Positions 14,343 through 26,061 of a DNA stretch of 26,061 nucleotides are shown here, one piece after another. The first letter of the stretch is position 1; each line of letters opens with the position of its first letter. Both the position numbers and the translations under genes were made by a program. Source of the DNA: a virus. The DNA lies in IMG/VR virus record IMGVR_UViG_3300013099_000077, positions 1 through 26,061 of that record. One strand, written 5' to 3'. The notes beneath the pieces are model-generated. The model ran no database searches, was not told where the DNA came from, and worked only from the letters and a program-made list of their open reading frames with translations.

Positions 14343-16028
14343 ATGGCTACAGTATATTCTATACAACATACAGATACGAATGAACCTTCATTTATTATCA
14401 ATCCATCTCAGATAGATGGTTTCGGTGGACCAAAATCTAATTCAAGCTTAGTATTACATGGTACTGGTAGATTAAAATATGGTGAAGCATTAAACGAAAA
14501 TTTCTTACATTTATTAGAAAACTTTTCTAGTCCAGCTAGAGCACTTCCATTAATAGTATCAATTCAAGGTGCTGATGATAATGGTGGAGCCGGTGTTGAT
14601 TATGTTGAAATTTTTGATGATAAAACAGATATTTTTATTAATGATTTTGAATTTCAAATAGTTGGTTCTACTAGTGCTATTAATGATAACAATTATTTAG
14701 TAGCATCTAGTTCTTATAATCAACCTCTAAATTTAACAACAATAATTTTACAAACTATATTACCAGATGCTCAAGCAGCATTTTTGGGAAATGTATCTTA
14801 TAATGTAGTAGAACCAGATCCATTGATGGTAGTTCCACCTTATAATTCTGGTCAATTATGGTTTAATAAAACAGATAGCGTATTATACATTTATAGAGAT
14901 ATTTCAGGTACTGGAACATTTCAATGGGATTATGCTGGTAGACTTGGAGTAACAGTTGAACCACCTACGTTCCCTCATGAAGGTGACTTGTGGTATGACC
15001 AAAGCGTACCTCAATTAAAAGTATATACTGGTGCTGCCTTTGTTAGTACTGCTGATCGATATGTTTTAAAAGGCGGCGATACAATTACTGTAAATGATAA
15101 TTCAGTTGGAGCTATTGGTAATGCGGCCGGAGTATTAACATTTACTAAAGACGATGGTGTTTCACCTTCTTTATATATTAATGAAGGTCATGGTGATATT
15201 AGTAAAGCTCCAGATTTTAGATCTACTGATGCTATATTAATGACAGCATCTGAAACTGTACACATTATAGCAGATTCTAATAATAATGGGACCGGCGGTT
15301 TCGTTGTAGGTAAAGGTGCAACCGATTTAGTTAGTTCAACTGATTTATTCCATGTATTAAATGATGGTACTATACAATCTGGTTTAATAACTGGATATGA
15401 AAGTTTAGTTTTATTTGATAATGTATTAACTAATAAAAAATATGTTGATGATTTTATCAATTCTTTATCTAGTGTTTATGTAGAAAAAGATGGTGATAGT
15501 ATAACTTCAGTATTACCCGCTATAGGTTTTGTTGGAAGAACAGATGGTGTTTTAAATTTTGATAATGTATTGTTCTTAAATGAAGGTAAAGGTACTGTTA
15601 TTGATGGGCCTGATATTAGAGGCACTGCAGCACTATTATTAACTGCTGATGAAAGCGTTTTAATACATATTGATGGAGACAATAATTCAACCGGTGGTTT
15701 CCATGTAGCAAAAGGTTCTTATAGTACTACTGGACATACTCCACTATTTAAAATTGAAAATGATGGTACTATACATTCAGATGTTACAAATTATGAAGCG
15801 TTATTAACCAATGGTAATGATATACCAAATAAACAATATGTAGATGATGAAATTGCTGCATTACAGGCAGCATTACTTGGAACTGGCGGCGGAACATTTG
15901 TTCATGCTAATCCAACTGTAGCAGTATCTGGAGATATAAGAGTCACAGGGACAGGAGCAACATTAGAAATTTTTATATATGGTAGTAGTACTTGGAATAA
16001 AGTATTCCCTGCTGTATACAGCACTTAA
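14343..16028 (+). CDS. Fibre-like virion structural protein with internal duplication (561 aa)
   Basis: The N-terminal region has a YSIQHTDTNEP opening and a KYGEALNENFLHLLENFSSP segment (about 45-64), a pattern I associate with fibre or whisker proteins of large T4-like phages. Two short repeats follow: SGQLWFNKTDSVLYIY at about 169-184 and EGDLWYDQSVPQLKVY at about 213-228, typical of phage fibre shafts. Residues about 240-371 and 379-503 are a large duplication sharing LNEG/INEG, TGGFxVxKG, NDGTI and KYVDD landmarks. The C-terminal 40 residues are short strands ending in a GSSTWNKVFP motif seen in fibre tips. It has its own late promoter and lies directly upstream of the radical SAM block. 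A role in host contact or neck decoration is inferred. Confidence 0.75.
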   Translation: MATVYSIQHTDTNEPSFIINPSQIDGFGGPKSNSSLVLHGTGRLKYGEALNENFLHLLENFSSPARALPLIVSIQGADDNGGAGVDYVEIFDDKTDIFINDFEFQIVGSTSAINDNNYLVASSSYNQPLNLTTIILQTILPDAQAAFLGNVSYNVVEPDPLMVVPPYNSGQLWFNKTDSVLYIYRDISGTGTFQWDYAGRLGVTVEPPTFPHEGDLWYDQSVPQLKVYTGAAFVSTADRYVLKGGDTITVNDNSVGAIGNAAGVLTFTKDDGVSPSLYINEGHGDISKAPDFRSTDAILMTASETVHIIADSNNNGTGGFVVGKGATDLVSSTDLFHVLNDGTIQSGLITGYESLVLFDNVLTNKKYVDDFINSLSSVYVEKDGDSITSVLPAIGFVGRTDGVLNFDNVLFLNEGKGTVIDGPDIRGTAALLLTADESVLIHIDGDNNSTGGFHVAKGSYSTTGHTPLFKIENDGTIHSDVTNYEALLTNGNDIPNKQYVDDEIAALQAALLGTGGGTFVHANPTVAVSGDIRVTGTGATLEIFIYGSSTWNKVFPAVYST

Positions 16029-16081: not shown

Positions 16082-17146
16082 ATGCGTGAACTCATGTGTT
16101 ATCTAAAGACCACGGATACCTGCAATTTAAATTGTGCCCATTGTTTTACAAATGGGATAAATGGTAAAAAGGGTTGGTTCGATGTTCCAGCAACAATAGA
16201 TTTCTTTCAAAGACTGAAAAAATTTAATCCAGAACTTGATAATGGAAACATATCATTTCATGGCGGCGAACCTTTGATTGCACCAACTGAGTTACTATTT
16301 GAAACTTGGCATGGTGTTAAAGATTTGTGGGAAAATGTTTGGTGGTCTGTACAAACCAATTTAACGTTTTCCCTTAATTCCGGTAGGCTTGATGTACTCG
16401 AAAAGATTTGTGATAAATCTTGGGGTACATCATGGGATAAAAATATAAGATGGTCTAACCAGAAACAAGAAGATTTATGGGAAGATAATGTTAAACAGTT
16501 AGTAAAAGATGGTCATAATATTACTGTAATGGTAAGTGTTAGTAAAAGTATAGTTGAGATGGAACCTATAGATATTATTAACTATATTTCTAGCTTAGGT
16601 ATCAAACATATAAATTTTGAAAGAATTACAGGTAATGGTAACGCATTATTAAATAGTGGTATTATTCCACTTAATATAGAATTAGATGCTTGGTTCCATA
16701 AAATGTGGAAACAATCAATCGAACATAAAACATACGAATATATAGACAATATGTTTTTTGATTCTATATTAACAGAAGTAGTTCATTCTACTCATGCTGG
16801 TTGTAGATGTAGAATGTGCGAACAAAAGATTTTAACAATTAATGCTGATGGTACAATTGGTGGTTGTCCAAATGGTGCAGTTGATAAACAATTTGCCCAT
16901 ATAAATGATCATATGTATGATATATTATTTAGTCCACAGAGACTATGTAATATTCAATCTGAATTAATGAGACCTAAAGCATGTTATGAATGTCCAGTAT
17001 ATGATACATGCAATGGAGACTGTCATCAATTAGAATTTCAAGGTGATATATGTCCAGCGCCTAAATCAATGATGATAGATATGAATGAAAATAGAGATAT
17101 TGATCTGTTTAAAAAGTTTTTAAACGGATTTGTAGGACAGGAATAA
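16082..17146 (+). CDS. Radical SAM/SPASM enzyme, putative maturase of the CHSS-tail protein (354 aa)
   Basis: The C-x3-C-x2-C motif CNLNCAHC (C14, C18, C21) holds the [4Fe-4S] cluster that cleaves S-adenosylmethionine. A canonical HGGEP follows at about residue 60. The C-terminal part is a textbook SPASM domain: a first Cys, then G-x4-C (DGTIGGC), then C-x2-C-x5-C-x3-C (CYECPVYDTCNGDC) and a last Cys in DICPAPK, enough for two auxiliary clusters. Peptide-modifying enzymes of this type form thioether, carbon-carbon or other links on ribosomal peptides. HxsB of the His-Xaa-Ser system has this layout. The next gene, 10 nt away, ends in a His/Ser/Cys repeat, so it is the obvious substrate. Anaerobic sulfatase maturase-like activity is an alternative, though no sulfatase is seen. 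Confidence 0.9.
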   Translation: MRELMCYLKTTDTCNLNCAHCFTNGINGKKGWFDVPATIDFFQRLKKFNPELDNGNISFHGGEPLIAPTELLFETWHGVKDLWENVWWSVQTNLTFSLNSGRLDVLEKICDKSWGTSWDKNIRWSNQKQEDLWEDNVKQLVKDGHNITVMVSVSKSIVEMEPIDIINYISSLGIKHINFERITGNGNALLNSGIIPLNIELDAWFHKMWKQSIEHKTYEYIDNMFFDSILTEVVHSTHAGCRCRMCEQKILTINADGTIGGCPNGAVDKQFAHINDHMYDILFSPQRLCNIQSELMRPKACYECPVYDTCNGDCHQLEFQGDICPAPKSMMIDMNENRDIDLFKKFLNGFVGQE

Positions 17147-17156
17147 GGAACCTTAT

Positions 17157-17669
17157 ATGGCAAATGTAACTAAAGCCCAATTTATAAATGATTTAAACGC
17201 ATATTTACAAGCTTATGCAAATGCTAAGAAAAATGCTAATTCTACTGACGTTTCACGTTCAGGAAATGAAATTACGTTAACTAATTATCCAGCTGTTAGT
17301 ACTGGTGAATTATCAACTGTGACTGTTAGTGGACCAGATCTTCAAGCAGCTCTTGAAGAATTTACTAAACAATTTTCTAGAGTTAGACTTACTAAGTTTT
17401 ATAAAAACCAATATGGAACAAACGTATTCAAATATTCTAGATTTGCTAGAATTAATAATACACTTCCTGATGGTACTAGAAGTCAACCTTCTGCTTCAAC
17501 ATATAATAATATTCAACCTCTTGAAGATATTAATTTAACACGATATCATACAATTTTAAGCTCATTACAGACTACATTAAATATCAATGCTAATAATTTA
17601 TATAAGAATTATTATTATTGCCATAGCAGTTGTCATAGTAGCTGTCACGCATCTAGAGGTAGAAGATAA
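17157..17669 (+). CDS. Putative modified virion or RiPP-like substrate with CHSSCHSSCHAS tail (170 aa)
   Basis: The N-terminal about 75 residues form two helices around a short beta segment (ALEEFTKQF near 65-73). The middle is Asn/Ser/Thr-rich, with KFYKNQYGTNVFKYSRFARI at about 80-99. The end is a tyrosine cluster (YYY, 152-154) followed by C155-H-S-S, C159-H-S-S, C163-H-A-S and R-G-R-R. Three HxS triplets spaced by four residues recall HxsA, the His-Xaa-Ser repeat target of two radical SAM enzymes. The gene directly follows a SPASM enzyme, and a hairpin overlaps its stop. The long ordered body is unlike a typical leader peptide, so a structural protein with a modified tip is as likely as a released peptide. 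A strong AAGGAACC ribosome binding site precedes the ATG. Confidence 0.75.
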   Translation: MANVTKAQFINDLNAYLQAYANAKKNANSTDVSRSGNEITLTNYPAVSTGELSTVTVSGPDLQAALEEFTKQFSRVRLTKFYKNQYGTNVFKYSRFARINNTLPDGTRSQPSASTYNNIQPLEDINLTRYHTILSSLQTTLNINANNLYKNYYYCHSSCHSSCHASRGRR

Positions 17670-17694: not shown

Positions 17695-18648
17695 ATGTTC
17701 AATATTAAAAATAAAATATATGTAAAGCATATAGATAAGTTTCAACCACATGAAGGTGAGTTTATACTTTTAGATGGTGGTGAATTCGCAGATCTTTATT
17801 TCCCAGAAGACAGTAATTTCATATTCAGATATAATACATTAGCTGAAATGATGACAGAAAGATTTGATGATGATTATAGTAAGTTATGGGAATACATAGA
17901 CTCTATAGATAAATTAAGAATTTATATATCAGATATTAATGATTATGCTGCATTATTTCTATACACAATGAAAGAATTATGTGAAACCTTTGGTTATCTT
18001 ACTGATGATGTAATGTTCAAGATATTAGAAATGTATGAAGTCAGTGATTTTATTCAAGAAAATCGTGATATAAAATACAATACAATGACTGATATATACA
18101 GTGCCTTTCAAGCTACTGGAAAATTATTCAATGTTGGTAGTACTGCAGATATACCATTAGAATTTGTATTATTTATGTACAAAAATGGTAAAATAACTAA
18201 ACCAATAGCAAACTTAAAAATTGCTAATATGGTTGAACCTATGCTAACTGGATATATTGAAAGTCAGTTGGTTAAAGTTGTTGGTCTTATTACGAGTAAT
18301 TATGATGTAATAGAAGATTATTTACCTATATCTGGAATAACTGATCCTGGTAAACTTAAAACTGCTATTAATAATGATCCATTTCTTTGTAAATTAATGT
18401 GTGATTCTATCGTTGATGTTCATACAGATTTAGATAATATTATTGAATTATATTCTTTGGCTTATGCAAAAGAAATTGATACTATGGAAGACGATCATGT
18501 TACTGAATTAATGGTATTTGTAGAATTATTTAAAAATCCTGATATTGACCAATTCTTGGCTGACTTTGAATGTTTAAGTTGTTTAAGTTTTTTTAGTAGC
18601 CGTTATCTTAAATTTAATGATTTAATACTTAAAACCTATATGGTATAA
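17695..18648 (+). CDS. Unrecognised protein in the radical SAM block (317 aa)
   Basis: Opens with AAGGATAAAAAA before ATG. The first 45 residues are beta-like (EFILLDGGEFADLYFPEDSNFIF). The remainder is almost entirely helical, acidic and rich in Leu, Ile, Asp and Tyr, with no metal, nucleotide or membrane motif and only a few scattered cysteines (a CLSCL near 293-297). It sits immediately downstream of the putative substrate and 2 nt before the first of two paralogous block-specific proteins. Such placement fits a substrate-handling or scaffold protein for the modification enzymes, or a second virion protein. I do not recognise the family. Confidence 0.55.
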   Translation: MFNIKNKIYVKHIDKFQPHEGEFILLDGGEFADLYFPEDSNFIFRYNTLAEMMTERFDDDYSKLWEYIDSIDKLRIYISDINDYAALFLYTMKELCETFGYLTDDVMFKILEMYEVSDFIQENRDIKYNTMTDIYSAFQATGKLFNVGSTADIPLEFVLFMYKNGKITKPIANLKIANMVEPMLTGYIESQLVKVVGLITSNYDVIEDYLPISGITDPGKLKTAINNDPFLCKLMCDSIVDVHTDLDNIIELYSLAYAKEIDTMEDDHVTELMVFVELFKNPDIDQFLADFECLSCLSFFSSRYLKFNDLILKTYMV

Positions 18649-18650
18649 AA

Positions 18651-19394
18651 ATGACAGAACTTGTTAAAACTATTCTACCTTTATCTCCTTTAGATATGGT
18701 AGAATTTTTTAAAGATAAAGAAAAAATCTTTCTTATAGACTACGTTGAATCTAAGAAAGAAATGAGTGCTAAAAGTATTCTAATTTATTTATCAAACTTG
18801 CAGATTAACTGTGAGTTTGATTCTATAGATGCAGAATTAGTAACAGAATATCTATATCTTAAAGACTTATGTAATACTCCAGAACTTGATGTGTTTGTCG
18901 CAAACTTGGTATATTTTGACAAATATAATGAACCATATCTTGATACTCAATCATTTGCTGATTTTGGAGTAGAAGTTTTAAAAGAAAACGCAGAAGTTAT
19001 AAACTTTTATAAACGTATAATGGAATCTTCTACCTTGTATATTTTATCTAAAAACTTCGAAGAGTTAAAAGAAAATGAGTCAGAAGAACAATATCCAACA
19101 AGATCAGGATTCTGTTTTTTAAATTTATACAAAATACCAGACTTCTTAATTATGTTTTTAGCAGATATAAAACCATTAGAAGATCAAATATACTTTGATG
19201 AATATTTTGATAATGATAATTATATCTTTAAAGGTAAAAACTTATTTGAATATTTCGCCCATGACGATAATTTATTCTATAAATATCTTGTAAATCTTTC
19301 AAGAGTACAAGACTTTATTAAAGGTGATGAATCTGAAGAAAGTCTTGATGGCCTTAACAAAATGGTAGACATTTATACTGCACTTAATGACTAA
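18651..19394 (+). CDS. Radical SAM block accessory protein A, paralog of the gene at 20529 (247 aa)
   Basis: It begins with a TILPLSPLDMVEFF segment, then ILIYLSNLQINCEFDSIDAELVTEYLYL and VANLVYFDKYNEPYLD, and later an acidic helical C-terminus. The protein at 20529 matches in order: TLPLSPSTIAEY, ILNYLAHLKIPC, FDTIFLYEYI, ANVLYYQKYGVPYFDD, then FF(V)SYLAD, and FDEY followed by a Gly-Gly-(D/K) turn. The two are therefore paralogs, each placed directly before a radical SAM gene (here with a 1-nt TAATG overlap). This pairing suggests an adaptor that brings a substrate to its enzyme, but no known peptide-recognition domain (RRE) is evident by eye. Confidence 0.6.
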   Translation: MTELVKTILPLSPLDMVEFFKDKEKIFLIDYVESKKEMSAKSILIYLSNLQINCEFDSIDAELVTEYLYLKDLCNTPELDVFVANLVYFDKYNEPYLDTQSFADFGVEVLKENAEVINFYKRIMESSTLYILSKNFEELKENESEEQYPTRSGFCFLNLYKIPDFLIMFLADIKPLEDQIYFDEYFDNDNYIFKGKNLFEYFAHDDNLFYKYLVNLSRVQDFIKGDESEESLDGLNKMVDIYTALND

Positions 19395-20542
19395 TGGAAA
19401 TCAAAATTCCTGTCTCTTCTATATACAGAGATAAAAAAAATATAATCAATGTATACAACGACAAAAAACATTACGGTTATTACGATAATCGTGATGAAAA
19501 TGTCGACATCAAACAACTCTTAGAATCCAAACGACCCAACATTGCTGAAGTAGAACTTACACTATTTGAAAACTGTGATATCAATTGTGCGTTCTGTTAT
19601 CATGACAAAAAATCTACGGTAGGTTTAGAATTTGATGAAATGGTTGCTAAAATATCAATTATTGAAAAATTCTTTCAAGATAGACAAGGAACTGTAGATT
19701 TCATGCAAATCAATATTGTAGGCGGCGAACTGTTTCAAGATAATCTCATAGAAAAAGGATACTTAGATTATTATTATGATATATCTAAAAAAATAAGTGA
19801 GTTAGCTTACATGTATGATTATCATTTAGAAATAGTTTGGGTATCAAATTTCTTATTTAAAGATACTAAATCTATAAACGAATTTATTACTAAATTAAAT
19901 TATAATAATATTAAATCATCGTTAATAGTTTCATATGATTTTGAAGGTAGACCAACTAATAAAAAATATTTTGAAAATATTAAACGATTAGAAAAATATA
20001 TATCGTCTGTTAATGTTGTAGCTACCATTGATACAATAAATGATATGATGACTATGACCGATCCATTCTTTGATTATATTTACCGTACGTTCCCAGTGTA
20101 TATTGATGACTATATTCCTGATGATATTAGTAATAATCTAACGCCGCCTGATAGTGTGATGTTAAAATTTTATAAATTTTTGTTTAACAACTATCCAAAA
20201 GTTGTTAATATAGCAGAATTATTGGAAAATACTGAAAATCCGATGGGATGTTTATCACTAAACAAAATTACTATATTTCCAGATGATAGTGTTTCCAACT
20301 GTAAATGGGGTAGATATAAACCTGAAAATTTCGAAACATATAAAGATACTGAGGTTAATTACCAAGACAACGCACCACAAATGAAACGACATTTAGAACA
20401 TTTCAACTGTTTATCATGTGAATTTTATAAACGTTGTAAATTTAGATGCTATACTCAATGGGATTTTATAACACCTAATATCCATGATTATGATGGATGT
20501 TGGATTAAAACATTTTTTAAATACATAAATGAAAACGATTAA
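19394..20542 (+). CDS. Radical SAM/SPASM enzyme with N-terminal extension (382 aa)
   Basis: A 55-residue N-terminal region precedes the C-x3-C-x2-C motif CDINCAFC (C61, C65, C68). A GGE motif (IVGGELF) follows at about 114. The C-terminal domain is SPASM-like: GC...C about 15 residues apart (NPMGC to VSNC), then C-x2-C-x5-C-x3-C (CLSCEFYKRCKFRC) and a final Cys in DGCW, consistent with two auxiliary iron-sulfur clusters. The N-terminal extension, rich in Asp, Lys and Tyr, may bind substrate. It is coupled by TAATG to the accessory protein at 18651 and overlaps the second accessory gene by 14 nt. Reaction and substrate are unknown; modification of a ribosomal peptide or protein is the usual role of this subgroup. 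Confidence 0.88.
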   Translation: MEIKIPVSSIYRDKKNIINVYNDKKHYGYYDNRDENVDIKQLLESKRPNIAEVELTLFENCDINCAFCYHDKKSTVGLEFDEMVAKISIIEKFFQDRQGTVDFMQINIVGGELFQDNLIEKGYLDYYYDISKKISELAYMYDYHLEIVWVSNFLFKDTKSINEFITKLNYNNIKSSLIVSYDFEGRPTNKKYFENIKRLEKYISSVNVVATIDTINDMMTMTDPFFDYIYRTFPVYIDDYIPDDISNNLTPPDSVMLKFYKFLFNNYPKVVNIAELLENTENPMGCLSLNKITIFPDDSVSNCKWGRYKPENFETYKDTEVNYQDNAPQMKRHLEHFNCLSCEFYKRCKFRCYTQWDFITPNIHDYDGCWIKTFFKYINEND

Positions 20543-21176
20543 AAGTACTTTACCATTATCACCATCTACTATAGCTGAATATTGTTCACATAATGTTAAA
20601 GGTGAAACTATAGACGTCATATTTGATATATCAGATTGTAGAATGCTGAATCATCACATATTAAATTATTTAGCTCATTTAAAAATACCATGTACTGTCA
20701 TAGGATTTGATACAATATTCTTATATGAATACATTACAACTTCAAATTATTTGGGTAATACTAACCTAGCTAAACATCATGCTAATGTTCTTTATTATCA
20801 GAAGTATGGTGTACCATATTTTGATGATGTTCTTACAGAATTTAATTTAGAATCTTTAGACAGAATGGTTAAACTATCAACTGATATCATAGATTCATTA
20901 CCGTTATTTCTATTAGCATCATGTGAAAAATTAGAAATATCTGAAAATGATATTAAACATGGTAAGAATTATACTGGAGTTAATTTTGCCCATTTAGCTG
21001 AGTTTACAGAATTTTTTGTATCATATCTTGCTGATAATATATTTGTTATGTCAAATCAAAAATATTATAGTCACTTTTTTGATGAGTATATATATGGCGG
21101 CGATAAGTTAATCCAATCTTTTATAGATAATCCAGATAATCTATTATTGAAAATTTCAGGATTTGATAATGTCTAA
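20529..21176 (+). CDS. Radical SAM block accessory protein B, paralog of the gene at 18651 (215 aa)
   Basis: Shares the ordered landmarks described for the gene at 18651 (TLPLSP start; ILNYLAHL; LYEYI; ANVLYYQKYGVPYFDD; VSYLAD; FDEY), but is about 30 residues shorter, mainly at the C-terminus. It has no cysteine cluster, membrane segment or nucleotide site. It overlaps the SPASM gene upstream by 14 nt and the first tandem radical SAM gene downstream by 8 nt, so translation is coupled on both sides. The duplication of this protein alongside duplicated enzymes suggests one adaptor per enzyme type. Function is unknown. Confidence 0.6.
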   Translation: MKTIKSTLPLSPSTIAEYCSHNVKGETIDVIFDISDCRMLNHHILNYLAHLKIPCTVIGFDTIFLYEYITTSNYLGNTNLAKHHANVLYYQKYGVPYFDDVLTEFNLESLDRMVKLSTDIIDSLPLFLLASCEKLEISENDIKHGKNYTGVNFAHLAEFTEFFVSYLADNIFVMSNQKYYSHFFDEYIYGGDKLIQSFIDNPDNLLLKISGFDNV

Positions 21177-22263
21177 GAAATTAATTAATTCATATGCAGC
21201 CCATAAAGGTGGATCGAGATCACTGCGTGACTCCAGACAGATTTCTGTAGATTTAACATTAGATATATTAAATGGGTGCGAATATAACTGTGAAGGATGT
21301 TTCGTTTCTAAAAAGAATGAGTTTAATGAAGAAGATTTAGATATATTATTAGATTTAGTAGAACAGTGGGAAGAAGGTGGGTTCGACATTAATGAACTCT
21401 TCTTAGGTCCAACTGATATATTCAGTGCTGTAAATTTTGATGAGTTGGTTTTAAACCCAAAGTTTCAAAAGATTTGTTCATATTTTACATTCACTTGTAG
21501 TACAACATTATTAAATGATTATGATGAGATTAAGCGAAAGTATGATTTATTACATGAACATTGTTTATCAGATAAACATGATAGAGAATTTGAAATTTTT
21601 GTAGTGATAGACGATAAAAGATATTTGAATAATGATAGAGCTTATATGGACAAGTTTAATAAGAACTTAGAATTATTAGATTTGTATAATGTATTTTTTG
21701 TTCTTAATGTATATTCTGAATCTATGTTTGATGCCGTAGGTCTAGCTGAATTTAATGATAAAATCTTTAAAGATTATAATTCTAAAATCAGAGTAAACCC
21801 ATCATATCTTCGTGGAACTAGTGTAAATCATTTAAGAAAATATACAGAACTTCATAATAAATTAATAAATGACCAAGTAAATGATGATAATATAGGTCGA
21901 GTATTTATGAACATGATCGATATATACTTTGGAGCATTTACTTTTAATACATATTCATATAGAAACCATGAATTATATATTGCTCCTGTTATATATGAAG
22001 GAATACCCCAGGATTTTCCATTTTTTCAAGTAGATAAAATAAATGGAAAATATAATTTAGATACATTAGATAATGCTCAAAATAGACTTACAGTACAACA
22101 ATATGATTTTAGTAAGAAGACAGAAGAATGTGATAAATGCGAGTTTATAACATCATGTTCCAGTAGAAATGTATTGTCATATATGGAACACCGAAAATTA
22201 TATGATTGCTTTATGCCAAAGAATTTATTTAGAGATGCATCTAAAGTAATTGAATTAGAATAA
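21169..22263 (+). CDS. Radical SAM protein, tandem family member 1 (364 aa)
   Basis: CEYNCEGC (C37, C41, C44) is the cluster-binding C-x3-C-x2-C. Where most family members have GGE(P), this protein has LGPTDIFSA at about 79-87, a replacement shared with the next three genes. An RVNPSYLRG segment lies in the middle of the barrel. The tail has C-x2-C-x5-C-x16-C (CDKC...C...C then MPK), which could hold one auxiliary cluster; it looks like a reduced SPASM or twitch domain, with Asn where the fourth SPASM Cys would be. The start at 21169 (MSKK) is preferred over a TTG two codons upstream because an AGGA lies 8 nt before it. Its substrate is unknown; a phage protein from this block is the simplest guess. 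Confidence 0.85.
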   Translation: MSKKLINSYAAHKGGSRSLRDSRQISVDLTLDILNGCEYNCEGCFVSKKNEFNEEDLDILLDLVEQWEEGGFDINELFLGPTDIFSAVNFDELVLNPKFQKICSYFTFTCSTTLLNDYDEIKRKYDLLHEHCLSDKHDREFEIFVVIDDKRYLNNDRAYMDKFNKNLELLDLYNVFFVLNVYSESMFDAVGLAEFNDKIFKDYNSKIRVNPSYLRGTSVNHLRKYTELHNKLINDQVNDDNIGRVFMNMIDIYFGAFTFNTYSYRNHELYIAPVIYEGIPQDFPFFQVDKINGKYNLDTLDNAQNRLTVQQYDFSKKTEECDKCEFITSCSSRNVLSYMEHRKLYDCFMPKNLFRDASKVIELE

Positions 22264-22285: not shown

Positions 22286-23407
22286 ATGATAGAAGAAGAT
22301 TTATACGAAAAAATGTCAAACTCTGAAGTAAAAACAGTTTTTGATAATGATAAGATGGATTTTGTTATTAACTTAGAACTATTAAATGGATGTGCTCATG
22401 CATGTACAGGTTGCTTTGTTAATAGGAAAAATGAAATCGTTGCAACTGATGTTAAGAAAGCTTTAAAATTGGCCCAAGAATTAACTGAAAAAGGTCTTAG
22501 ATTTAGAGAAGTTATTATATCTCCTACAGATATTTTTAGCGCAACCAATACTAATGACATATTATTGAATGACGATTTTCAAGCAATGTTAAAATTGAAT
22601 GATAAAACCCGTATCACAACTACAGCAATGTTTAATGGTACTGATTTATCTGACGTTAAAAGAGTATTTGACATATTAGATAACCCTGATTATTTTAGAA
22701 CTAATATGATTATGGAATTCTTAGTTCCTATGGAAGCTGATAAAATTGTTGCTGATGATGCTGAATATTTTAACAAACATATGGAAATTATTAATTATTT
22801 TAAAGAATCTACTCCTAAAGTAGTTGATTGGTCATTTGTTGTAAACGTTCATCATGATGATATATTGATTGATAATTTTGAACAGATTACTGATACAGTT
22901 AGAGATAAGTATGAAGGTATTATTGAATTTTTACCATCATTCTTTAGAACTGGTAATACCGATTTAATTATCAAACATTTAGGACAATGGAAAGAATTCT
23001 TAAGCAATACAGTTAATAGAGATAATTATCAAAAATTGATGGTAACTATTGCAGATTTACATCACAACGGATTTAATACAATTGTAATGAATTATCGTAA
23101 AGGTAATCTTTATGTGTCTCCATTTATATATGAACAAATATTAATGGCAGATGAAGAAATGCTATTAGATGATAGTAATGTTGAAAAATTATTTGATAAA
23201 CTTGGTGAATTAACAGCAGATCAATATAGATATGCACATAAGACTGAAGAATGTGGAACTTGCGAATATTTTAGTACATGTGTTGGTCGTAATGTATTAT
23301 CATTTATGGAATCTAAAGGCATAACCCAATGTATTTATCCTAAAGATGTATTAGATTTATATTCTAAAAATACTACACAATCTCCAAGACTGGAACGCTG
23401 TCAATAA
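22286..23407 (+). CDS. Radical SAM protein, tandem family member 2 (373 aa)
   Basis: Same layout as its neighbours: CAHACTGC (C36, C40, C43), ISPTDIFSA at about 78-86 in place of GGE, an EFLPSFFRTG segment near residue 210, and a CGTC-x5-C-x16-C tail followed by IYPK. It has the best ribosome binding site of the four (AAAAGGAATATCAA) and the only real gap (22 nt) before it, so translation can restart here within the operon. Its C-terminus is about 10 residues longer than the others, with a Ser/Arg-rich end. It shares one base with the next gene (TAATG). Confidence 0.85.
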   Translation: MIEEDLYEKMSNSEVKTVFDNDKMDFVINLELLNGCAHACTGCFVNRKNEIVATDVKKALKLAQELTEKGLRFREVIISPTDIFSATNTNDILLNDDFQAMLKLNDKTRITTTAMFNGTDLSDVKRVFDILDNPDYFRTNMIMEFLVPMEADKIVADDAEYFNKHMEIINYFKESTPKVVDWSFVVNVHHDDILIDNFEQITDTVRDKYEGIIEFLPSFFRTGNTDLIIKHLGQWKEFLSNTVNRDNYQKLMVTIADLHHNGFNTIVMNYRKGNLYVSPFIYEQILMADEEMLLDDSNVEKLFDKLGELTADQYRYAHKTEECGTCEYFSTCVGRNVLSFMESKGITQCIYPKDVLDLYSKNTTQSPRLERCQ

Positions 23408-24507
23408 TGATTATAAACGATGTTTATGGGGCAATGAACAATTCTGAATGCATCGGTGAAAATATCGCTAATGCTTCAGAGTTTAGAGTACGTATTAATG
23501 CCGAATTCCTAAATGGATGTGAATTTGATTGTGCGGGTTGCTTTGTAAAACGGAAAAATGCTTATAATAACGATGATATGGATATATTAGTCGATACTAT
23601 AAACAAATTTAGAAATACTGGACACACATTTGATGAAATCATTTTGGGACCTACTGATTTCTTTGCTGCTTACAACTCTGTTAATATTATTAGCGATAAA
23701 CGGTTCACCGATATTTTTAAAACTGGTGATGTGGTTTTAACCTTATTATCAACAATGCAAAGTTCTGATGATGATATAATAAGATTGATTAAACAATTTA
23801 ATAAAGTTTTTACATCAGAAAAAATGGAAGTTGAAGTATTAATCCCAATAGATATTAAAAAATTACACAAGGATGATCATGATTATATTGAAAATTTAAA
23901 AAGTAAAATAAAATTATTAGATTATTTTGATGCTAAAGTAGATTATGCTTTACAATTAAATATTAGAGACTTAGATTCTGAAATAGAAGACTTTGATATT
24001 GTTAAAATTACTAAACTAGTTAGAGATGAATTTGGAACTATCCTAGAATTCAATCCATCATTCATGAGATCTGGTAATATTGATAATGTTATCAATACTT
24101 TAGGAAAATGGAACACAATGTTAGAACGTTGTCTTAATGAAGATAACAAAGATTCAGTGACATTGACTATATCTAATAAGTACCACGCTGGTAATAATGA
24201 AAGAACTTTTACTTTTAAGAATGGATTCTTGTATAGTACTCCTTTTATATATGAGAATGTTGTTTCTTTAAAACCTTCTTTTGTTATAGATAGGCCAGAA
24301 TCACTTTATGAAATCGATGATATAAATTTATATGATGTTGAATCTAATATAGATCAATATAAGTATGTTAATAAAACTGATGATTGCGAAAATTGTCAAC
24401 ATGTTGCTTCATGTATATCTAAATTAGTATTAAAATATATGGAAGTAAATCAAATTACCCAATGTCTTTTATCTAGGAAAAGTATAGAATTATATGATAA
24501 TCAATAA
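23407..24507 (+). CDS. Radical SAM protein, tandem family member 3 (366 aa)
   Basis: CEFDCAGC (C38, C42, C45) is followed by LGPTDFFAA, the family replacement for GGE, and by EFNPSFMRSG in the barrel. The tail is CENC-x5-C-x16-C, but the SRNV stretch conserved in the other three reads SKLV here and the MPK/YPK end is LSRK, so this is the most diverged tail. N-terminal residues 1-30 differ among the four and may set substrate choice. It begins within the previous stop (TAATG) and is overlapped for 14 nt by the next gene. All cluster cysteines are present, so activity is expected. Confidence 0.85.
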   Translation: MIINDVYGAMNNSECIGENIANASEFRVRINAEFLNGCEFDCAGCFVKRKNAYNNDDMDILVDTINKFRNTGHTFDEIILGPTDFFAAYNSVNIISDKRFTDIFKTGDVVLTLLSTMQSSDDDIIRLIKQFNKVFTSEKMEVEVLIPIDIKKLHKDDHDYIENLKSKIKLLDYFDAKVDYALQLNIRDLDSEIEDFDIVKITKLVRDEFGTILEFNPSFMRSGNIDNVINTLGKWNTMLERCLNEDNKDSVTLTISNKYHAGNNERTFTFKNGFLYSTPFIYENVVSLKPSFVIDRPESLYEIDDINLYDVESNIDQYKYVNKTDDCENCQHVASCISKLVLKYMEVNQITQCLLSRKSIELYDNQ

Positions 24508-25570
24508 TGGCATTTCAATTGAAGAACGTAGAACTGCCACTAATAGTAACTCTTTAATAGATAGTGACAGAGTTACAGTTAGTATCCAAACAGAATTCTT
24601 GGATAGTTGTGCCTTCAATTGTGAAGGCTGTTTTGTCAAACGTAGAAATACTTTCACAGACCAGGAATTAATCGATCTAAAAAAATTCATAACAAAATTT
24701 GACGATAAATATGAGTTAAATGAACTTGTATTATCTCCTACTGATATGTTTGGAGCTAGTAATACATTCCAAATTATTTCAAATCCTATATTCATATCCT
24801 TATTTGAACATTTCAACGCATTAACCTTTAATAGTACTTTACTATCAGAACCTTCTCATGTTAAATCTATTATGGATTTTATTCGAGAAAATTATCCTGA
24901 AGATGTTTATTACGAAATGTTTGTAGTTTTGGATATAGAAAAATTTATTGCTAAAGATAAAGAATACCTTGAAAGATTGGAAACAAATTTAAGTCAATTA
25001 ACAGATGTTAATATTATCTTTGTTTATAATATTCATTCTAGTGATATGTTTAACAATGTAGATATTGCATCTATATCTAAAGAAGTTAATGACAGATATA
25101 ATTCTCATTTTAGGATGAATCCTTCATTCTTTAGATCTCAAAAGAAAAGTCTAATAATAGATGCCTTAGATAAATGGAAAGATAGATTAGGTAAAATATA
25201 TAATGATGTCAATGTTAAAGACATGTTATTTAATATGATCGATCCTTATTTTGGCAGCAATACTTATATTACGATGACTTTTAAAAATGGTAAATTATAT
25301 CGTAATCCTTATTTGTATGATTTTATATTCGATAATTCTAAAAATGTTTCAATGGAAGTTGAATCATTATCTATAGAAGAATTATCAGATTTAAATCAAT
25401 CCTTAGAACTAGAACAATATGAGTATTCAAGAGATTTAGTTTGTGATACTTGTCCATTTTTATCCTCATGTGTCAGTCGAAATGTAATCATGTATATGAA
25501 AAATAACGATATAAAAGAGTGTTTATTGCCGAAAGATATAATGTTAAAGGCTAATCTTAAATGGAATTAA
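24494..25570 (+). CDS. Radical SAM protein, tandem family member 4 (358 aa)
   Basis: CAFNCEGC (C39, C43, C46), LSPTDMFGA in place of GGE, RMNPSFFRS in the barrel, and a CDTC-x5-C-x16-C tail ending LLPK place it firmly in the tandem family. The N-terminal MIIN start repeats that of member 3, which suggests that members 3 and 4 arose from the more recent duplication, although overall divergence is large. It starts 14 nt inside member 3 and ends 10 nt inside the next, different, radical SAM gene. Confidence 0.85.
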   Translation: MIINNGISIEERRTATNSNSLIDSDRVTVSIQTEFLDSCAFNCEGCFVKRRNTFTDQELIDLKKFITKFDDKYELNELVLSPTDMFGASNTFQIISNPIFISLFEHFNALTFNSTLLSEPSHVKSIMDFIRENYPEDVYYEMFVVLDIEKFIAKDKEYLERLETNLSQLTDVNIIFVYNIHSSDMFNNVDIASISKEVNDRYNSHFRMNPSFFRSQKKSLIIDALDKWKDRLGKIYNDVNVKDMLFNMIDPYFGSNTYITMTFKNGKLYRNPYLYDFIFDNSKNVSMEVESLSIEELSDLNQSLELEQYEYSRDLVCDTCPFLSSCVSRNVIMYMKNNDIKECLLPKDIMLKANLKWN

Positions 25571-26061
25571 TCTTAAAGATTTCAGAAATATGTGACTGGT
25601 CCTGTAGTTTTTGTTCATCAAGTGATATTGCTAATACTAAACGAGATGTATTAGATTTAGATCATGTCAAACGATTTTTAAAACGATTTCCTGAAACCAA
25701 TACTATCATCATAAATGGAGGCGAACCTTTAATGGTTAAACCTTCATATTATTGGGAATTATTAGATCATTTAGATGAAATAAATTCTCAATCAAACATT
25801 TCTTTTACCTCAAATCTTTGGAATTTTTATAATCATCCTGAAAAATGGATAGACATATTCAAACATCCTAGAGTAGGTGTGACTACATCATTTAATTATG
25901 GAAATACTAGGACAATTGCTAAAGATGTACCATATACTGAGAAGATGTTTTGGAAAGTATCTGATAAATTTTTAGAATTAGTAGGATATAGACCTGATTT
26001 TATTTCTGTAGTTAATGAAGAAAACTATGAAAATTGTATTGACAATGTTAGATTAGCTGAA
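25561..26061 (+). CDS. Radical SAM enzyme, N-terminal part (3' end outside window)
   Basis: An ATG at 25561, inside the end of the preceding gene, opens a frame that runs off the right edge after 167 codons. CDWSCSFC (C11, C15, C18) begins almost at the N-terminus, and a canonical INGGEPL lies at about 52-58, followed by a TSNLWNF strand at about 84-90. It thus belongs to the classical GGEP type like the enzymes at 16082 and 19394, and not to the PTD family before it. Whether a SPASM domain follows cannot be seen. The modification block therefore extends beyond this window. Confidence 0.85.
   Translation, partial: MELILKISEICDWSCSFCSSSDIANTKRDVLDLDHVKRFLKRFPETNTIIINGGEPLMVKPSYYWELLDHLDEINSQSNISFTSNLWNFYNHPEKWIDIFKHPRVGVTTSFNYGNTRTIAKDVPYTEKMFWKVSDKFLELVGYRPDFISVVNEENYENCIDNVRLAE

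Follow-up and report, generated by a model that had tools for sequence, protein, structure and literature searches.

The DNA examined here (the window) is a 26,061-nucleotide stretch from a virus, IMG/VR record IMGVR_UViG_3300013099_000077, taken over its full length. It contains a gene cluster in which a fibre-like virion gene is followed by a radical SAM (rSAM) gene, rSAM A, and then, 10 bases after the rSAM A stop codon, by an open reading frame whose product ends in a repeated Cys-His tail. Further downstream lie an uncharacterised gene, two phrog_20767 genes, rSAM B, four paralogous rSAM C genes and rSAM D. Judged by their CxxxCxxC motifs, seven rSAM genes are thus present in 10 kb; the four tandem rSAM C genes give only very weak Radical_SAM scores. 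The features are collected in Table 1.

Table 1. Features of the window. Counts out of 46 refer to the long loci that were fetched with rSAM A.
Position	Strand	Feature	Basis
14343..16028	+	Upstream virion/fibre-like protein, 561 aa	phrog_14394 (virion structural protein) E 6e-5, and phrog_15511; relatives in 30 of 46 loci
16082..17146	+	rSAM A, radical SAM/SPASM enzyme, proposed tail-modifying enzyme	CNLNCAHC motif and SPASM region; phrog_1802 radical SAM E 2e-50
17157..17669	+	Tail-bearing protein, 170 aa, proposed substrate; fast-evolving body (predicted helices, beta-hairpin, helix, strand) plus tail	ORF; phrog_35144, unknown function
17619..17666	+	C-terminal tail CHSS-CHSS-CHAS-RGRR, three Cys-His-x-x units, proposed modification site	Residues C155-R170 of the ORF
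17695..18648	+	Uncharacterised cluster protein, 317 aa	Relatives in 19 of 46 loci
18651..19394	+	Uncharacterised cluster protein (phrog_20767), possible partner, recognition or chaperone protein	phrog_20767 E 1.3e-19; relatives in 42 of 46 loci
19394..20542	+	rSAM B	CDINCAFC motif; phrog_1802 radical SAM E 3e-28; relatives in 35 of 46 loci
20529..21176	+	Second phrog_20767 protein	E 1.1e-9
21163..22263	+	rSAM C1	CEYNCEGC motif; phrog_31457 E 2.7e-17
22286..23407	+	rSAM C2	CAHACTGC motif; Radical_SAM E 6.9e-5
23407..24507	+	rSAM C3	CEFDCAGC motif; paralogue of C1/C2 by sequence
24494..25570	+	rSAM C4	CAFNCEGC motif; paralogue of C1/C2 by sequence
25561..26061	+	rSAM D, cut by the window end	Radical_SAM 40.5 bits, above gathering; relatives in 24 of 46 loci

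The tail-bearing protein ends YYYCHSSCHSSCHAS-RGRR-stop, directly after the residues NYYY. The codons of the tail read TGC CAT AGC AGT / TGT CAT AGT AGC / TGT CAC GCA TCT / AGA GGT AGA AGA, followed by TAA, and the description of the tail in the initial annotation is confirmed exactly. The different codons used by the three units had been taken as a sign of selection on the amino acid pattern rather than of a fresh DNA duplication, and this argument also holds: over 145 distinct tails, most of them fetched by a pattern that fixes Cys and His, Cys is encoded by TGT 231 times and TGC 204 times, and His by CAT 236 times and CAC 199 times. A recent duplication was rejected on this basis. The Tyr cluster that precedes the tail is particular to this protein, as relatives have VDF, LDY, LTV, NTI and so on at this place.

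To identify relatives in cultured phages, we used rSAM A as a tblastn query. Seven records representing six jumbo phages on four host genera were found, with 36-45% identity: Atu_ph07 (Agrobacterium), Phosso (Sinorhizobium), SURPRISE13, FLC6 and FLC8 (Burkholderia) and pPa_SNUABM_DT01 (Pseudomonas). In all six the gene directly after the enzyme ends in the tail, as CHSSCHASCHNSRSRR, CHTSCHASCHSSRSRR, CHSSCHTSCHGSRGRR (three phages) and CHTSCHTSCHSARGRR; these genes had been annotated as hypothetical proteins. Each genome has exactly one such site and none for the reversed pattern. The enzyme was the working bait, since tblastn of the phage collection with the substrate, or with 30-residue pieces of the tail, gave nothing useful, partly because of divergence and of the low-complexity filter. 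Two dihydrofolate-reductase-like genes lie inside the rSAM cluster of Burkholderia phages (L005:14391-15568 and L006:14304-15517; L numbers denote the loci fetched in this analysis).

Environmental relatives were first fetched with a degenerate DNA pattern for the tail, which matched at least 119 stretches in viral_contigs. In these and the cultured-phage loci, 150 ORFs (122 distinct, complete ones) end in CHxS-CHxS-CHxS-R(G/S/A)RR-stop, apart from a few with Ala or Asn at the fourth position. A simpler pattern read backwards gave no match in the same 22 records in which the forward pattern found the tails, and a chance origin was rejected. Conservation measured on the pattern-fetched set is partly by construction, because the pattern fixes Cys, His and Arg. 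Among the hits in bacterial genomes, some are chance matches in GC-rich or repetitive frames (L129, L131, L134, L138, L142, L143), and most others look like phage contigs binned into MAGs. The latter probably include L132, L133, L135 and L145 (genome_contigs), which carry the tail plus rSAM A on contigs binned as Rickettsiales, Bdellovibrionaceae, Bacteroidetes and one further bacterium.

A less biased set was obtained by fetching 80 loci, out of 365 relatives among viral stretches, with rSAM A alone. Of these, 50 have a tail gene within 60 bp (49 matched by the tail expression, and L157, whose five-unit tail escapes it) and 12 more have one within 2.6 kb. Of the remaining 18, five lie in records that carry a pair of tails elsewhere, and 13 end close to the enzyme or are short fragments; one of these 13, L197, has the repeat adjacent in a longer protein. 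All 29 distinct three-unit tails in these loci keep Cys and His at all six positions, whereas the fourth position of a unit is mostly Ser but can also be Asn, Gln, Lys, Val or Ala. The expression used to find these tails itself asks for CH..CH..(C)H, but reading of the genes left over showed no other tail form. Some loci have CHSxCHSSHSSRNRR, in which the third Cys is missing, and one clade ends CHSNCHGSCHGS(I/L) without RGRR. The conserved element is therefore the Cys-His pair at period 4, and not H-x-S or RGRR.

The number of units also varies. Tails with two Cys-containing units plus one without, with three units and with five units (L157) were observed, and L123 (7832-8515) has a greatly extended tail with more than a dozen Cys-His units separated by VPV or VV spacers, still ending in ARGRR. 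In L197 (6051-7289; record 3300038433_001472) the tail protein has CHSSCHSSCHSSCHWA followed by Hint/intein-like domains (Hom_end_hint E 2e-15) in place of RGRR, reaching the end of the record; autoprocessing might release or cap the tail. A second class consists of tandem pairs of about 127 aa proteins, both with the tail, usually several kb from rSAM A (L009, L019, L024, L025, L052 and others).

The initial annotation had proposed that the tail is a modification site for the rSAM A enzyme, and had set as tests its conservation relative to the body, its co-occurrence with the enzyme and, as a refutation, the same tail in genomes lacking any radical SAM gene. In 127 of 127 close pairs (98 distinct enzymes) the enzyme gene comes first; these pairs were pooled from both fetches and are related by descent, so they do not represent 127 independent events. 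Where two enzymes share 38-45% identity, their bodies share 19-21% and their tails 82%. In an alignment of 79 substrates the only invariant columns are C155, H156, C159, H160 and H164, with C163, S166, P45 and R77 nearly so, although profile iteration with the tail masked still joins most bodies into one divergent homologous family. Of 39 records in which the tail had no adjacent enzyme in the fetched stretch, 31 carry rSAM A or a weaker relative elsewhere, and the other eight, which lack it, are pieces of 5.6-38.7 kb. Within the limits of fragmentary records, the refuting condition was thus looked for and not found, and both supporting conditions are fulfilled, with co-occurrence in both directions.

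The structure of the tail protein was predicted with AlphaFold (pLDDT 79.8, pTM 0.72). The model has helix 6-27, helix 59-73, a hairpin at 76-98, helix 127-146 and strand 148-155, with the tail at low confidence; as AlphaFold does not model covalent changes, the tail geometry says nothing about modification. The model of the smaller tandem-class protein keeps helix, hairpin, helix and tail, and gave no clear match in fold searches. For the window protein, the best viral matches are members of the same family plus three long uncharacterised proteins of Myoviridae sp. ctijX18 (BFVD A0A8S5USJ8, A0A8S5USJ7 and A0A8S5USV2; 504-660 aa, best E 2e-4 to the body fold), which are perhaps larger members of the family. 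The best PDB match has E 0.2, and the best VIA match is TssK (Z 4.6, rmsd 5.8 over 110 residues), too weak to use.

To investigate where the protein may act, we compared the cluster with published virion data. The Atu_ph07 study reports 131 particle proteins by mass spectrometry, most of them encoded in CDS 31-76, 170-215 and 284-329 (PMC6102473). With the numbering checked by the portal (198) and the prohead core (204), the tail protein is CDS 170, the first of its cluster. This position suggests that it was detected in the particles, a step that is inferred from the cluster limits alone. Pelagimyophages carry rSAM cassettes in their host recognition cluster (PMC7029224). A constant tip on a fast-changing body would fit an attachment protein, and the fibre-tip position suggested in the initial annotation is plausible but uncertain.

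The sequence of rSAM A places it in the broad group of radical SAM/SPASM peptide or protein maturases. It has the CxxxCxxC motif, the rSAM relationship and the C-terminal SPASM cysteines, with invariant cysteines among its relatives, although the window copy scores just below cut-off with both the SPASM model (26.4 of 27 bits) and Radical_SAM (26.5 of 29.5 bits). Curated maturase models are matched almost equally, with PapB at 42.8, AnSME at 42.7, YhhB at 40.2 and DynA at 38.9 bits against cut-offs of 340-450, and this does not choose among thioether, cyclophane, formylglycine or other products. In many relatives (26 of 46 loci) a cupin/JmjC-like gene lies directly before rSAM A, with JmjC_2 and Cupin_2 above gathering in several (L003:7421-8005, L005:7448-7984, L007:7477-7983, and L170:4003-4993, the last with a 2OG-Fe(II) oxygenase as well). 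This gene is absent from the window. Some JmjC_2 enzymes hydroxylate His or Arg, and it may add a hydroxylation in those phages.

Taken together, these results indicate that the rSAM A gene and the tail gene form an enzyme-substrate cassette of large tailed phages, a reading in which we have fairly good confidence. What the analysis establishes is that the Cys-His-x-x repeat is under strong purifying selection, that the rest of the protein diverges fast, and that the enzyme gene sits directly upstream in most phages that have the tail. The remainder is inference: that rSAM A, with its cysteine pattern for auxiliary iron-sulphur clusters, acts after translation on the Cys and/or His side chains of each unit, probably forming a carbon-sulphur or carbon-carbon cross-link within or between units; that the body serves for recognition and attachment; that the product is part of the virion near the tail fibres, where its modified end would help host attachment or make the tip rigid or metal-binding; and that further rSAM, cupin/2OG and phrog_20767 proteins of the cluster probably add to, or chaperone, the same modification. 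The variable number of units is as expected for a repeated modified core and unlike a plain tag. That Cys and His are both fixed makes a Cys-His linkage or a Cys-based thioether, in our judgement, somewhat more likely than an H-x-S cyclophane. Adjacency and conservation do not prove catalysis, no reaction can be transferred from models whose cut-offs are missed so widely, another of the seven rSAM genes could be the one that acts on the tail, and in the tandem-pair class the substrate genes lie kilobases from the enzyme. The interpretation of the initial annotation is thus partly supported: its core idea, a modification site for the neighbouring radical SAM enzyme, is strongly supported as a genetic link, whereas the kinship with HxsA that it drew from the H-x-S spacing is not supported, and the cross-link or metal site that it proposed for Cys plus His stays a hypothesis.

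Of the alternatives, a three-residue cyclophane (triceptide), in which each His-x-Ser is an aromatic-X-X3 unit with the His ring joined to the beta carbon of the fourth-position residue and Cys has a separate role, survives best, but we consider it unlikely; as it is one chemical version of the preferred reading, our confidence in the two overlaps. The H-x-S spacing fits and is present in most units, the fourth position accepts mainly Ser, then Asn, Gln, Lys, Ala and Val, and the enzyme also scores with the cyclophane makers YhhB, DynA, FxsB and AmcB. However, this reading does not explain Cys, which is as constant as His, all cut-offs are missed (YhhB 40.2 of 445 bits, FxsB 28.7 of 370 bits), and the same enzyme scores equally with thioether and sulfatase maturases. 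A plain metal site, in which unmodified Cys-His units bind zinc, iron or copper, for example along the axis of an oligomeric fibre tip, while the neighbouring rSAM enzymes act on something else, is more doubtful. The invariant residues are common metal ligands, His-x-His iron sites occur in phage tips, and the low confidence of the tail model is as for a part that needs a ligand, but a metal site does not explain the enzyme gene directly upstream in all close pairs or the near-complete co-occurrence. Equally doubtful is a phage-borne RiPP, cut from the body and released to act on the host or on competing phages. A C-terminal core behind a longer N-terminal part is the RiPP layout, and the Hint/intein-like domains of L197 could release the repeat; against this, the gene sits at the end of a virion gene cluster in Atu_ph07 and beside fibre-like genes, and no protease or exporter was identified in the window's cluster. 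That the constant tail is only a tag recruiting the enzyme to the variable body is very unlikely, since unit number varies up to many copies, RGRR can be replaced by a single Ile or Leu in one clade, the fixed residues are the reactive ones, and the body has no conserved site of its own apart from the nearly invariant P45 and R77.

Hundreds of large bacterial viruses carry a particle-gene-cluster protein that ends in a strictly conserved Cys-His repeat, with the gene for a radical enzyme directly beside it. These viruses probably rebuild the tip of one of their own proteins with radical chemistry. Radical SAM genes in jumbo phages have been noted as scattered annotations or as possible Fe-S metabolism (PMC5332604, PMC8066314, PMC11898562), with no substrate proposed that we could find, and literature searches for the tail and for radical SAM RiPP-type modification in jumbo phages, covering open papers only and hence not proof of absence, found no description. 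Here a specific target and specific residues are proposed, in phages that can be cultured on laboratory hosts. If correct, this would be a ribosomal-peptide-style modification on a virus particle, a handle on how these phages hold on to hosts, and a new repeat-directed enzyme with a short, perhaps transferable target sequence, and it would make a large set of unknown phage genes testable at once. A bolder possibility, which we hold only tentatively, is a categorically new use of radical SAM chemistry, in which tailed phages across distant jumbo and marine lineages cross-link or otherwise rebuild the Cys-His repeat of a virion host-recognition protein with their own multi-enzyme cluster, giving an adhesin tip that cannot be made from the twenty amino acids.

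Radical SAM maturation of a repeated C-terminal core is itself known; what is unusual here is its proposed occurrence on a phage protein of 120-360 aa and across very different phage lineages. The His-Xaa-Ser system shares repeated H-x-S near a C terminus and more than one rSAM enzyme in the cluster, and rSAM D scores with HxsC and other rSAM A members with HxsB, but every cut-off is missed (HxsC 34.3 of 267.9 bits for rSAM D; HxsB touched only weakly by 5 of 6 rSAM A members), no HxsA-type match was found, and no substrate matches an NCBIfam target model significantly. In addition, Cys before each His is nearly invariant, whereas Ser is replaceable. The CXXX-repeat target family and its maturase (TIGR04115) share Cys at every fourth residue and a radical SAM maturase; only Atu_ph07 rSAM B was listed with this model, at 18.2 of 350 bits, the model is not among the 25 best listed for rSAM A, and in the phage protein His follows each Cys. 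The FibroRumin system (TIGR04135/TIGR04136) also has a Cys-rich rSAM target, and 3 of 79 substrates touch the target model at best E 0.012 while rSAM A touches the maturase at 2e-4; neither match is near the curated cut-off, and hosts and gene context differ. The anaerobic sulfatase maturase (AnSME, TIGR03942) is a joint best curated match with full-length alignment, at 42.7 of 349 bits, but the substrate lacks the CxPxR-type motif. The PapB/CteB/SCIFF ranthipeptide and sactipeptide systems (NF047865, TIGR03974) likewise place an rSAM/SPASM enzyme next to a Cys-rich C-terminal core, with PapB the other joint best curated match of rSAM A, at 42.8 bits against a cut-off of 340, and entry 5wgg (CteB) its best solved relative; the substrate here differs in being a 120-360 aa protein in phages, with Cys-His pairs at period 4, and not a short peptide.
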